A stretch of DNA of 53,112 bases, taken from IMG/VR virus record IMGVR_UViG_3300022602_003246, positions 1 to 53,112 of that record; one strand, given 5' to 3'. This document shows, one piece after another, positions 8,438 to 21,563 of the stretch (position 1 is its first letter; every line of letters starts with the position of its first letter). The translations under genes were made by a program, and so were the position numbers. This DNA is from a virus. Under the pieces are notes generated by a model. The model did not search any database and was not told the DNA's origin. It saw only the letters and a list, made by a program, of their open reading frames with translations.

Positions 8438-8458
8438 GGGTTATAGATGGAGGCAATT

Positions 8459-8926
8459 ATGAACAAAGTTATCGTTTTTGACATTGATGGCACGATTGCC
8501 AACACTGAACATCGTAAGCATTGGGTTTCAAGCAAGCCAAAGAATTGGGCGGCTTGGAACGCTGGTATGGCTAATGACACGCCACATGCGGATATCAAAT
8601 TTATTATGGATATGTTGCGGTTTGCTAATGTAAACCATCCAGACCACGAAGATGAAATTGCTATTATTTTGTGCAGTGGTCGTGGCGAGGAAACTCGTGA
8701 AGTTACTCGTCGTTGGTTGAACGATAATGGCTTTACATATGAGCAACTGTATATGCGAAGCGAGGGCGACTATCGCAAGGATAGCATCGTTAAGGTAGAA
8801 TTGCTTGAACAAATCCGTAAGGATTGGGGACCACCGTTTTTATGGTTCGACGATAGAGAGCAAGTGGTGCAGGCGATCAGAGCAGAAGGCGTTCGTGTTC
8901 TACAAGTTGCTGACGGTAAATTTTGA
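8459..8926 (+). CDS. HAD-family phosphatase, PNKP 3'-phosphatase type
   Basis: 155 residues. HAD motif I is VFDIDGTIANT with D8 and D10; a serine in LCSGRGEETREVTRRWL is motif II, and LWFDDREQV is the acidic motif IV. This matches the C-terminal 3'-phosphatase half of T4 polynucleotide kinase, which removes 2',3'-cyclic or 3' phosphates from cut tRNA. The kinase half is a separate gene at 9965-10426, with a GIY-YIG gene and two tiny ORFs in between. Start taken at 8459 (GGAGG 5 nt upstream). Overlaps the convergent GIY-YIG gene by 27 bp. Confidence 0.82.
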   Translation: MNKVIVFDIDGTIANTEHRKHWVSSKPKNWAAWNAGMANDTPHADIKFIMDMLRFANVNHPDHEDEIAIILCSGRGEETREVTRRWLNDNGFTYEQLYMRSEGDYRKDSIVKVELLEQIRKDWGPPFLWFDDREQVVQAIRAEGVRVLQVADGKF

Positions 8927-9804: not shown

Positions 9805-9968
9805 ATTTCTGGACAAGTATATTAGCAGTATTTTTTGTAGATGCAGTATGTGCGGCTATGAAATATAATCAAGGGCAAACATTTGTAATTTTAATTGCAA
9901 CTACTGTTTTGTATTTTTTAACACAGTTTGCTTTTGGAGTTATTAAAGAATGGAAGAATTTGGGATGA
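9801..9968 (+). CDS. Small membrane protein, 55 aa
   Basis: Two hydrophobic stretches (WTSILAVFFVDAV and TFVILIATTVLYFLTQFAFGV), with a GGGGGA ribosome site 6 nt before the ATG. Its TGA overlaps the ATG of the kinase gene at 9965. Function unknown. Confidence 0.55.
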   Translation: MNFWTSILAVFFVDAVCAAMKYNQGQTFVILIATTVLYFLTQFAFGVIKEWKNLG

Positions 9969-10426
9969 CCACGCTTTATATGTTAGTTGGTGTGCCTGGT
10001 TCGGGCAAGTCAACTTGGATTAAGAACCAAGGTTTTAAAGATGTAATTATTGCATCAAGCGATGATTATATCGACCGTGTTGCGGCTGAAAGTGGCAAGA
10101 CTTATAACGAAATCTTTAGCCGTGCTATTGGTTATGCACAAAAGTTTTGTGATGCCCAAGTGCAGACTGCTATCAACCTTGACAAAACTCTTGTTTGGGA
10201 TCAGACTAACACAACTGCTAAGGGTCGCTGCGTCAAGTTACGTCGTATTCCTAACGATTGGCGCAAAATTTGTGTATTTTTTGAAACCCCTGAACCAGAG
10301 GAATTACAACGCCGTCTTGATAGTCGTGTAGGCAAGAGCATTCCAAAGGATGTTATGAAGTCTATGATTGATAACTTGGAAGTTCCTGATTTGAAAGAAG
10401 GTTGGGACGAGATAATTTGGGCTTGA
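9965..10426 (+). CDS. Polynucleotide 5'-kinase-type P-loop ATPase
   Basis: 153 residues. Walker A is G9-VPGSGKS, preceded by the hydrophobic strand TLYMLV; IIASSDDYI and LVWDQTNTTAKGR follow as in the kinase half of T4 PNK, and ETPEPEELQRRLDSR is the usual lid helix. It would phosphorylate 5'-OH ends of RNA or DNA. With the separate HAD phosphatase (8459-8926) and the Rnl1-type ligase (20382-21563) it forms a full RNA repair set. Start at 9965 chosen for its ATGA overlap; an ATG at 9950 is possible. Its TGA stop lies in the -35 box of the next promoter. Confidence 0.85.
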   Translation: MTTLYMLVGVPGSGKSTWIKNQGFKDVIIASSDDYIDRVAAESGKTYNEIFSRAIGYAQKFCDAQVQTAINLDKTLVWDQTNTTAKGRCVKLRRIPNDWRKICVFFETPEPEELQRRLDSRVGKSIPKDVMKSMIDNLEVPDLKEGWDEIIWA

Positions 10427-13435: not shown

Positions 13436-13568
13436 GCGCTCTTGGTGGAATAGGTAGACACAAGAGACTTCGGAGAAAGGGTAAACGCCCACTATGGTTC
13501 AAATCCAGAATCTCCGCCGTAAAATCTCTCGCTTCGGCGTACCAGTTCGATTCTGGTAGAGCGCACCA
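13436..13568 (+). tRNA. tRNA-Leu(UAA) interrupted in the anticodon loop by a 50-nt insertion
   Basis: Outer parts form a canonical class II tRNA: acceptor GCGCTCT (13436-13442) with AGAGCGC (13558-13564), then A and CCA; anticodon stem AGAGA (13463-13467) with TCTCT (13525-13529); variable arm CGC-TTCG-GCG; T arm ACCAG-TTCGATT-CTGGT. If 13471-13520 is removed the loop is CTTAAAA with anticodon TAA. The break is between bases 34 and 35 (or 33/34, since T470 and T520 are identical), the place where cyanobacterial and plastid tRNA-Leu(UAA) carry a group I intron. The insertion is far too short for a group I intron. It could be a novel small intron or an insertion that kills the gene. Confidence 0.8.
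13471..13520 (+). other. 50-nt insertion in tRNA-Leu with tRNA-like three-way fold
   Basis: Ends pair as CGGAGA (13471-13476) with TCTCCG (13511-13516). Inside are a GGGT-AAAC-GCCC hairpin and a T-arm-like GGTTCAAATCC (13497-13507 region). The 3' end CGCCG (13515-13519) can alternatively pair with CGGCG of the variable arm (13535-13539). It may be a degenerate mini-tRNA inserted in another tRNA, or a structured intron of a kind I do not recognise. Confidence 0.6.
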
Positions 13569-13596: not shown

Positions 13597-13625
13597 TCTC
13601 CCTGTATAAATACTATACAGGGAGA
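13597..13625 (+). promoter_or_regulatory. Late promoter inside a 12-bp hairpin that masks the ribosome site
   Basis: Perfect 12-bp arms at 13597-13608 and 13614-13625 with loop AATAC. The late box TATAAATA covers 13605-13612, and the ribosome site AGGGAG lies in the 3' arm, 8 nt before the ATG at 13633. Read-through RNA would hide the ribosome site; a late transcript starting inside the 3' arm would not. Confidence 0.8.
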
Positions 13626-13632
13626 TTAAAAT

Positions 13633-14259
13633 ATGTTATGTGATTATGAGTGTGGCGAAGAAGCAAAATATAAATTAAAAAATGGAAAAAATTGCTGTCA
13701 ACAACATTATAGTTCATGCAGAAGTGTTAAAGAAAAAAATTCACTCGGATTAAAAAGTGCATATAAAAAAGGCACACGAAAATCAGCAAAGAACATCTAT
13801 AATGAATTGCCACAAGAAACAAAAGATAAAATGGCATGGGCAAGAGGAAAAACTTTTACCGAAAATGTAGATGTTTTTACAGATTATAGTATGCATGGTA
13901 ATATGTTTATTAAAAAAAGAATAATACAAGAAAATCTTATTGAATATAAATGCCATAGGTGCGACGTGACCGAATGGTTTGGTGAAAAAATCACCCTTGA
14001 TTTAGACCACATTAATGGAAATAATCGTGACAATAGATTAGAAAATTTAAGATTTTTATGCCCGAATTGTCACAGTTTAACATCAACATATAAAGGCAGA
14101 GGAAAAAATATTGGAACCGTAAAAGTATCTGACGAAGAATTAATTGCCGCATATAAATCCGAAGGAAATATTCGTAAAACATTATTGAAAGTAGGACTAT
14201 CCGCAAAGGGTGGAAATTATGCAAGAGTAAAACAATTAATTGCAAAGTTTAACATTTAA
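13633..14259 (+). CDS. HNH homing endonuclease with N-terminal Cys finger
   Basis: 208 residues. N-terminal CDYECGEEAKYKLKNGKNCC...C is a probable zinc finger shared almost word for word with the nuclease at 18332. The HNH core is CHRCDVTEWFG...LDLDHINGNNRDNRLENLRFLCPNCHS, with paired CxxC zinc ligands and the catalytic DH and N. A C-terminal helical part may contact DNA. It lies just after the interrupted tRNA-Leu, which makes it a candidate for having spread that insertion. Expression appears restricted to late times by the hairpin upstream. Confidence 0.9.
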   Translation: MLCDYECGEEAKYKLKNGKNCCQQHYSSCRSVKEKNSLGLKSAYKKGTRKSAKNIYNELPQETKDKMAWARGKTFTENVDVFTDYSMHGNMFIKKRIIQENLIEYKCHRCDVTEWFGEKITLDLDHINGNNRDNRLENLRFLCPNCHSLTSTYKGRGKNIGTVKVSDEELIAAYKSEGNIRKTLLKVGLSAKGGNYARVKQLIAKFNI

Positions 14260-20381: not shown

Positions 20382-21563
20382 ATGTTTTACGATTTTCCCC
20401 GTATCACCCACCTTGACCAGGTTCGTCCTGCTATTGAAGGTCGTGATGAATTTATCATTGCAGAGCGTGATTGGGGCTATGTAGTCAATTACATGGTCAG
20501 CATGTCTGATACCTTTCCGCCTGTTGAGTCAGAGATGGATGCAATTCGTCGTGAGTGTCGTGGTATGCTGTTCCACAAGGACGGCTCTATCATGGCTCGC
20601 CGCTTGCACAAGTTCTTCAACATTGGTGAGCGTGATGAAACGCAGTTTTCTGCGATTGACTTTTCACAGCCGCATGTTATCTTGGAGAAGTTAGACGGCA
20701 GCATGGTAACTGGCGTATTCACCGATGGTGGATTGCGACTTGGCACCAAAATGGGGATTACGGAAGTCTCTATGCAAGCAGAAGAGTTTGTAGCAACACG
20801 CCCACAGTATGAACAGTTCATTCGTTGGGCAGATCAATCATGTGGTTATACTCTTATATTTGAATGGTGTTCTCGTAAGCAACAGATTGTTATTGATTAC
20901 CCAGAAGACCGTCTTGTTTTAATCGCCGCTCGCCACAAGGAAAACGGTGCTTATGCAAGCCTGCAATGGTTGCAAGAGTATGGTGATATGTTTGAAGTAG
21001 AGGTTGTAAAGACCTATGCTGGTACCGCCAAGTCTATGGTTCATCTTATGGATGAAACTCGTGATGCCGAAGGCATTGAGGGTTATATCGTTCGCTTTGA
21101 TGATGGTCACATGCTAAAAATAAAGGCGGCTGATTATCTTCGTAAGCATAAGACAAAGGATGCTATCTCGTTAGAGAAGAACATTATCTCTTTGTTAGTA
21201 AATGAACAAATGGACGATGTAAAGGCATTTATGCTTCCAGACGACCGCAAGCGGGTGGAAGATTACGAAACCGATTTTTGGATCGGTGTAAATCAAGTAG
21301 TTCAGTCATATGACCGCTACTTTGATACTGTAATCGCTCACGGACTTGACCGCAAGCGTTTTGCTTTGGAATGGCTTCCTACAATTAAAGGTCAGGATGC
21401 TTTTGCTGGCAACATTGTTTTCGGCAAATTTGATCATCGTGATACGAGAACTATGGTATTAGATATCATCAAGCGTAGCACTGGAACCCAAACTAAAATT
21501 GACGAAGTTCGTCATCTTTGGGGTTCACATCGTTGGACTTATCACTTTGAGGCTGATGCTTAA
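20382..21563 (+). CDS. rnlA: T4 Rnl1-type RNA ligase
   Basis: 393 residues, close to T4 RnlA (374). The nucleotidyl-lysine is K103 in EKLDGS (motif I); RRECRGMLF and RRLHKFFNIGE precede it as in Rnl1, EWCSRKQQIVIDY is motif III-like, EGYIVRF is motif IV and HMLKIKAADY is motif V. It joins 3'-OH and 5'-phosphate RNA ends, classically to repair tRNA cut in the anticodon loop by host nucleases. Partners are the kinase at 9965 and the phosphatase at 8459. It is followed without gap by an operon of tiny genes. Confidence 0.92.
   Translation: MFYDFPRITHLDQVRPAIEGRDEFIIAERDWGYVVNYMVSMSDTFPPVESEMDAIRRECRGMLFHKDGSIMARRLHKFFNIGERDETQFSAIDFSQPHVILEKLDGSMVTGVFTDGGLRLGTKMGITEVSMQAEEFVATRPQYEQFIRWADQSCGYTLIFEWCSRKQQIVIDYPEDRLVLIAARHKENGAYASLQWLQEYGDMFEVEVVKTYAGTAKSMVHLMDETRDAEGIEGYIVRFDDGHMLKIKAADYLRKHKTKDAISLEKNIISLLVNEQMDDVKAFMLPDDRKRVEDYETDFWIGVNQVVQSYDRYFDTVIAHGLDRKRFALEWLPTIKGQDAFAGNIVFGKFDHRDTRTMVLDIIKRSTGTQTKIDEVRHLWGSHRWTYHFEADA

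Follow-up and report, generated by a model that had tools for sequence, protein, structure and literature searches.

The stretch of viral DNA analysed here (the window, 53,112 nucleotides in all) carries a tRNA-Leu(UAA) gene that is split inside its anticodon by a 50-nt element, and this raises the question of whether the element is an intron of a working gene and, if so, of what kind and by what route it would be removed. A preliminary description had offered three options: a new kind of miniature tRNA intron, a tRNA nested in a tRNA, or a knockout of the gene. We favour the first two together, as the element places an acceptor stem and T-arm at an intron position, and disfavour the knockout, as the exons are identical in five contigs. 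The element is very probably a real, intron-like insert in a functional tRNA; the fuller reading, in which a small intron built as a miniature tRNA is excised as a tRNA would be and the exons are ligated by the phage's own Rnl1, we consider evenly poised.

The interrupted gene and its parts

The gene and its insert comprise the following parts:

13436..13470, plus strand: 5′ exon of tRNA-Leu(UAA), with the acceptor 5′ strand, D-arm, anticodon stem 5′ strand and C32 U33 U34 (ARAGORN on the joined exons)
13471..13520 (equally 13470-13519), plus strand: mini-tRNA insert, 50 nt, with the geometry of the upper half of a tRNA
13471..13477, plus strand: acceptor-like stem, 5′ strand CGGAGAA, six of seven bases paired with 13510-13516
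13478..13492, plus strand: linker of 15 nt, AGGGTAAACGCCCAC, containing a GGG..GCCC hairpin and a GGUAA string
13493..13509, plus strand: T-arm-like hairpin TATGG-TTCAAAT-CCAGA (5+7+5, four of five pairs), its loop UUCAAAU fitting the T-loop consensus UUCRANN
13510..13516, plus strand: acceptor-like stem, 3′ strand ATCTCCG, pairing with 13471..13477
13517..13520, plus strand: 4-nt tail CCGT, in the place of NCCA (ACCA in the L022, L042, L058 and L059 inserts)
13521..13568, plus strand: 3′ exon of tRNA-Leu(UAA), A35 onward with CCA encoded (ARAGORN on the joined exons)

When exons 13436-13470 and 13521-13568 are joined, ARAGORN accepts an 83-nt tRNA-Leu(UAA) in which all stems are paired and CCA is encoded in the gene, as the preliminary description had anticipated for the sequence without 13471-13520; its placing of the break between bases 34 and 35 was equally right, the anticodon being interrupted between U34 and A35. 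The borders of the insert are ambiguous by one base (13470-13519 or 13471-13520), with an identical spliced product.

Standard searches pass over the gene. ARAGORN makes no tRNA call on unspliced 13436-13568, the window-wide standard tRNA search does not list the gene, and in a whole-window Rfam scan the tRNA model has no match at 13436-13565; a local search of the region with that model does bridge the insert (13436-13565, 40.9 bits, E 1.3e-7). In its intron mode ARAGORN wrongly labels the gene Arg(UCG), because it picks another border. The codon UUA makes up 30% of Leu codons in 14 large ORFs of the window.

A miniature tRNA within a tRNA

The predicted fold of the insert has a 6-bp closing stem, a GGGU..GCCC hairpin and a weak T-arm-like hairpin (-13.3 kcal/mol), and so agrees with the end stem and T-arm-like part described earlier, the latter being weak. 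Against shuffled sequences the folding energy has z = -1.5, so that energy alone is no proof of structure. A geometry test was therefore preset from canonical tRNA (7-bp acceptor, 5+7+5 T-arm, 4-nt tail); the insert forms 10 of the 12 pairs, a score equalled by none of 4000 dinucleotide shuffles (p < 2.5e-4); the two that fail are the inner acceptor pair and one pair of the T-stem. With a 7-bp acceptor, 5/7/5 T-arm and 4-nt tail lying flush with the exon borders, it has the defining traits of a class of mini-tRNA inserts described below. The GGUAA string of its linker resembles the linker of the Asn-type inserts of that class, a likeness whose meaning, if any, would be inferred from sequence.

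Conservation at the locus

The 50-mer recurs with one or two changes in four related contigs (L004, L005, L007 and L008), where the insert-bearing tRNA lies beside the same WYL_2-domain gene as in the window. Set against each relative in turn, the window differs by one base in the insert. The exons show no changes, the 5′ exon (13436..13470) being the same throughout, while the adjacent gene is 77-87% identical between the window and these relatives (13-23% nucleotide divergence) and differs at 21-33% of third positions in codons of unchanged amino acid. Judged by this comparison, both exons and insert are under strong constraint (purifying selection). Exons identical in five contigs with diverged flanks argue against a pseudogene; and as the five contigs, from different metagenomes, agree, assembly error was ruled out. 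Two close relatives, L002 and L003, have an uninterrupted tRNA-Leu(UAA) at the same locus, with a different tRNA body sequence.

A neighbouring gene could have suggested a homing-endonuclease origin of the insert:

13633..14259, plus strand: HNH endonuclease gene, neighbour of the tRNA

This gene adjoins the tRNA in the window and L005 only; it is missing downstream of the tRNA in L004, L007 and L008, which keep the insert. The HNH gene is thus not required, and a homing-endonuclease origin was rejected. Between tRNA and HNH gene the window has a strong hairpin at 13597-13625 (TCTCCCTGTATA..TATACAGGGAGA). At L006:475-800, the window's tRNA locus holds a tRNA-Leu scrap, TTGGTAGGCGCAAG, followed by another ORF, possibly a homing nuclease.

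An exact search of viral contigs with 37 nt of the insert gave no match, single-base differences being enough to hide the relatives from it. Among named phages, BLAST with the window tRNA found intact exons only. A scan of cellular genome contigs gave, among the matches listed, chance matches only, and so speaks neither for nor against cellular copies.

Relatives in tRNA-Leu genes

Viral contigs were then searched with a pattern requiring the two Leu(UAA) exons at a spacing of 30-60 nt. It returned 88 stretches; true mini-inserts at the same site were found in 22 contigs, the remaining stretches being uninterrupted tRNAs, or genes with a long intron in which the second match arose by chance. 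Five types of Leu insert have mini-tRNA geometry in common (the window; L059/L091; L058/L063; L022/L101; L042), with almost no shared sequence. The four types other than that of the window end in ACCA (L022, L042, L058, L059), and they form 12 of 12 pairs in L059 and L058, 11 in L022 and 10 in L042. The inserts of L058 (7418-7467), L022 (minus strand) and L042 (14165-14211) have RGCAGCA in place of the T-loop and an invariant CCAGTG in their linkers, perhaps making a different elbow contact.

A second class of inserts, 32-44 nt long and folding as plain hairpins or in no clear way (L026, L044, L053, L069, L035, L090, L064, L032 and L060), fails the tRNA geometry test and occupies the same sites as the mini-tRNA inserts. 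Those at U34/A35 of tRNA-Leu(UAA), in divergent phages, are 32-36 nt long, with YUAC and then a hairpin of about 10-13 bp and no T-arm:

L026, 6634: hairpin insert at U34/A35
L069, 685, minus strand: hairpin insert at U34/A35
L053, 11426: hairpin insert at U34/A35
L044, 10552: hairpin insert at U34/A35
L035: hairpin insert at U34/A35
L090, 7492: hairpin insert at U34/A35

BLAST of the L026 and L069 genes found no interrupted copy among isolates. Both kinds of insert occur together in L090 and in Agrobacterium phage Atu_ph07. The interrupted isoacceptor is usually the phage's sole copy: the contigs examined held no intact copy, except of Leu(UAA) in G004 and G009.

Relatives in tRNA-Asn, tRNA-Lys and isolate phages

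The preliminary description had called for a search for relatives in other phage tRNA genes, and this was fruitful, giving inserts in three tRNA species: in all, some ten mini-tRNA inserts with no evident likeness to one another in sequence interrupt the anticodons of tRNA-Leu, -Asn and -Lys genes in the viral contigs. An intron-tolerant finder revealed mini-tRNA inserts at 35/36 in both the tRNA-Lys(UUU) and tRNA-Asn(GUU) of a 208-kb contig (G017). Scans and BLAST added Asn-type inserts in L379, L458, L457/L391/L456, L454, L332, Atu_ph07 and Salicola phage SCTP-2, and a Lys-type insert in Atu_ph07. In the Leu, Asn and Lys genes alike, a U stands immediately before the insert.

The Asn inserts form 9-11 of 12 pairs in the geometry test. 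In an alignment of eight, 96.6% of cells are paired and 10 of 11 pairs have changed on both sides; the covariation score is matched by none of 500 shuffles and collapses when the alignment is slid by one column. The alignment was fitted to a covariance model and is hence biased towards structure, but its verdict is shared by the slid controls and by the geometry test, which uses no alignment. The covariance model of the Asn-type inserts (R2) recovers these and does not have the window insert among its matches, so that common descent of the two is without covariance-model support.

The published tRNA list of Atu_ph07 lacks asparagine and threonine (PMC6102473). We found a 46-nt mini-tRNA insert in its tRNA-Asn and one of 48 nt in its tRNA-Lys(UUU), which is uninterrupted in the related phage Phosso. 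A further Atu_ph07 gene (MF403008; L491:18305-18413, minus strand), with a 33-nt hairpin insert in the anticodon, can be read as tRNA-Thr(UGU) if one anticodon-stem mismatch is accepted. The Asn and Thr genes thus appear to be present and interrupted, which would account for their absence from the list. Atu_ph07 has in addition an unannotated tRNA-Leu(UAA) (L461:2008-2369, equal to L480 13890-14251, minus strand) with a 278-nt insertion at U34/A35 that looks like a group I intron. In L454 a Ser-like tRNA body with a long variable arm, anticodon GUU and an Asn-type mini-tRNA insert (1957-2091) lies about 110 nt after an interrupted tRNA-Asn; here the insert has possibly spread together with flanking anticodon bases.

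RNA ligase and end-healing genes

The window encodes three proteins that bear on the rejoining of a broken tRNA:

8447..8926, plus strand: PNKP-type HAD phosphatase for RNA 3′-end healing (PF25109, E 6.7e-28; phrog_415)
9950..10426, plus strand: P-loop protein resembling the polynucleotide kinase half of T4 Pnkp (phrog_2071, E 1.2e-20; phrog_505 positions 1-141, E 7.2e-11)
20382..21563, plus strand: T4 Rnl1-like RNA ligase, the proposed exon joiner (PF09511, E 2.3e-25; T4_Rnl1_C, 3.5e-6; phrog_562, E 1.3e-68)

Ligase, 3′-phosphatase and 5′-kinase genes of a Pnkp/Rnl1 repair set are thus all present, the kinase by profile similarity. Counting as an RNA ligase any PF09511 or PF09414 match over the cut-off, we found one in 10 of 15 Leu-insert contigs of at least 40 kb and in none of 15 controls (Fisher 1e-4); from 90 kb upwards the figures are 7 of 9 and 0 of 5 (p 0.01). 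Each of the six Asn-insert genomes larger than 280 kb has one too. One control (G028) had a near-cut-off PF09414 match, rejected as an RNA ligase because by sequence it is an NAD-type DNA ligase. Because large phages often carry RNA ligases as repair enzymes (PMC7824862), the association is confounded in part and counts as support, not proof. RtcB was found in none of 33 contigs and was rejected as the joining enzyme. No HAD_PNKP member was found in Atu_ph07, SCTP-2, G017, G043 or G044, all of which bear Rnl1; this would agree with exon ends that can be joined without healing.

A proposed route of excision and ligation

That the insert is removed from the RNA seems probable to us from the sequence evidence; that RNase P, RNase Z and a ligase remove it falls a little short of an even call. 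RNase P leaves an upstream 3′-OH and RNase Z a downstream 5′-phosphate, ends that T4 Rnl1-type ligases can join. From this end chemistry, the role of Rnl1 and the U preceding the inserts, we propose excision as a tRNA followed by resealing by the phage ligase. The pre-tRNA would fold with the mini-tRNA standing in its anticodon loop; host RNase P would cut 5′ of the mini-tRNA, leaving U34 with a 3′-OH; an RNase Z-like tRNA 3′-end endonuclease would cut behind the tail, leaving A35 with a 5′-phosphate; and the phage Rnl1-type ligase would seal U34 to A35, giving the mature tRNA. More tentatively still, large phages in general may have a separate tRNA-splicing route, in which mini-tRNA introns are cut by RNase P and a 3′ endonuclease and the exons (3′-OH/5′-phosphate) are sealed by phage RNA ligases.

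In model RNAs an acceptor stem and T-arm suffice for canonical-site cleavage by RNase P (PMC11143913), RNase Z clamps the tRNA elbow (PMC4919913), and the known role and natural substrate of T4 Rnl1 is the rejoining of tRNA nicked in the anticodon loop (PMC3400036). At the level of sequence geometry the window insert has the coaxial acceptor/T-arm stack of an RNase P substrate; it does not have the 3′ RCC(A), its tail being CCGT. The least secure step is the 3′ cut, since CCA at the tail acts as an antideterminant on many RNase Z enzymes (PMC4919913); the CCGT tail in the window and the hairpin class lacking a T-arm are further weak points. Plain hairpins without a T-arm occur in L026, L053, L069, L064, L032, the Atu_ph07 Thr gene and the L090 Leu gene, so another endonuclease may serve both kinds of insert.

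Alternative explanations

This last point leads to the rival that survives best, which we nevertheless think unlikely: the intron is protein-spliced, but the cutting is done by a specialised endonuclease of phage or host that reads a stem-loop formed in the anticodon loop, the resemblance to a T-arm being secondary. The PNKP-type phosphatase and kinase would then heal the resulting 2′,3′-cyclic phosphate and 5′-OH ends before Rnl1 seals them. This rival draws support from the plain hairpin inserts found at this position in similar phages, from the carriage of both insert types by Atu_ph07 and L090, and from the phosphatase, kinase-like protein and ligase all being encoded in the window. However, it leaves unaccounted for the repeated convergence on exact acceptor/T-arm dimensions, T-loop consensus and ACCA tails, and the five Rnl1-bearing phages in which HAD_PNKP was not found also count against it.

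A second alternative, very improbable in our judgement, makes the mini-tRNA the actual product (a regulatory RNA, a primer or a decoy), for which the outer tRNA is a mere carrier. Conservation of the insert to one change would suit such a product, as would the CCA with which the Leu-type relatives end, like finished tRNAs; yet a carrier would have no need of perfect tRNA exons at the same anticodon position, and between phages it is the inserts that differ almost completely while the outer tRNA stays canonical. Slightly less credible again is a dead or remnant tRNA, knocked out by an inserted tRNA fragment. The escape of the unspliced gene from standard tRNA finders is what such a remnant would lead one to expect, but every exon stem is intact, five contigs have identical exons despite diverged flanking DNA, inserts occur at the same site in unrelated phages and in three tRNA species, and the phage usually has no other gene for the interrupted isoacceptor. 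Finally, a group I intron that has degenerated or been miniaturised and splices itself at the classic Leu(UAA) site can practically be dismissed: the insertion point is identical and Atu_ph07 has its 278-nt group I-like insertion there, but the core cannot fit in 50 nt, no Rfam intron matched at any threshold used, and the Asn and Lys inserts lie at 35/36.

Comparison with known systems

To our knowledge, group I introns and those of the Lak megaphages aside, bacteria and their phages are not known to splice tRNAs. What appears to be new here is the compact mini-tRNA class itself, its occurrence in several phage groups and in three tRNA species, its covariation and its link to RNA ligases; the splicing route, if demonstrated, would be new in kind. 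Phage RNA ligases might then have a constitutive job, in housekeeping splicing, besides repair. Phage tRNA sets are undercounted, as for Asn and Thr in Atu_ph07, and an excisable tRNA within a tRNA bears on the origin of introns and of split tRNAs.

The Lak tRNA introns are a near parallel, and our search for prior reports of phage tRNA introns, outside which lay subscription journals and preprints, yielded that paper only (Devoto et al. 2019, PMC6784885). Its accessible text calls the introns enigmatic, places them inside the anticodon, notes intron-free alleles and a Thr(UGU) intron that may itself encode a tRNA, and proposes no mechanism; the recurring nested mini-tRNA suggests a concrete one. 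In both systems a phage tRNA has its anticodon loop interrupted by a tRNA-like insert, and an intron-free relative is known (L002/L003 for the window, with a different tRNA body). The Lak-A1 inserts are longer, however (93 and 114 nt, with tRNA-like parts near full size), and show no obvious sequence likeness to that of the window when compared by eye. In Prevotella phage Lak-A1 the 93-nt insert lies in a tRNA-Ser(GCU) (L549:16004-16168, minus strand), a gene shared by Lak-C1 (L556), and its 3′ part looks like a tRNA, with acceptor CTACATAA..TTTATGTAG and T-loop TTCGAAT. Lak-A1 and Lak-C1 both have PF09414 matches.

The group I intron of cyanobacterial and plastid tRNA-Leu(UAA), to which the preliminary description had likened the site, has the exact insertion point U34/A35; the likeness ends with position, and there is no Rfam intron match. 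That description had also judged the element too short, rightly: at 50 nt it is without the catalytic core (P3-P8, roughly 200 nt or more), and it folds instead as acceptor plus T-arm. The AT1/acceptor-T-arm minihelix, a model substrate of RNase P (PMC11143913), has the same acceptor stem, T-stem and T-loop, whereas the window insert is natural, is embedded in a tRNA, replaces the D- and anticodon arms with a 15-nt linker and has the tail CCGT. Archaeal and eukaryotic protein-spliced introns (bulge-helix-bulge, EndA/SEN) are likewise short anticodon-loop introns needing a nuclease and a ligase, but the phage inserts lie at 34/35 or 35/36 and not 37/38, in the setting of a bacterial virus, and the predicted fold of the window insert contains no canonical 3-nt bulge/4-bp helix/3-nt bulge. 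With T4 tRNA repair (Pnkp and Rnl1 against PrrC) the window shares a phosphatase, a kinase-like protein, Rnl1 and a break in the anticodon loop; in T4 that break is made by a defence nuclease, whereas here it would be programmed by an intron encoded in the phage genome itself.
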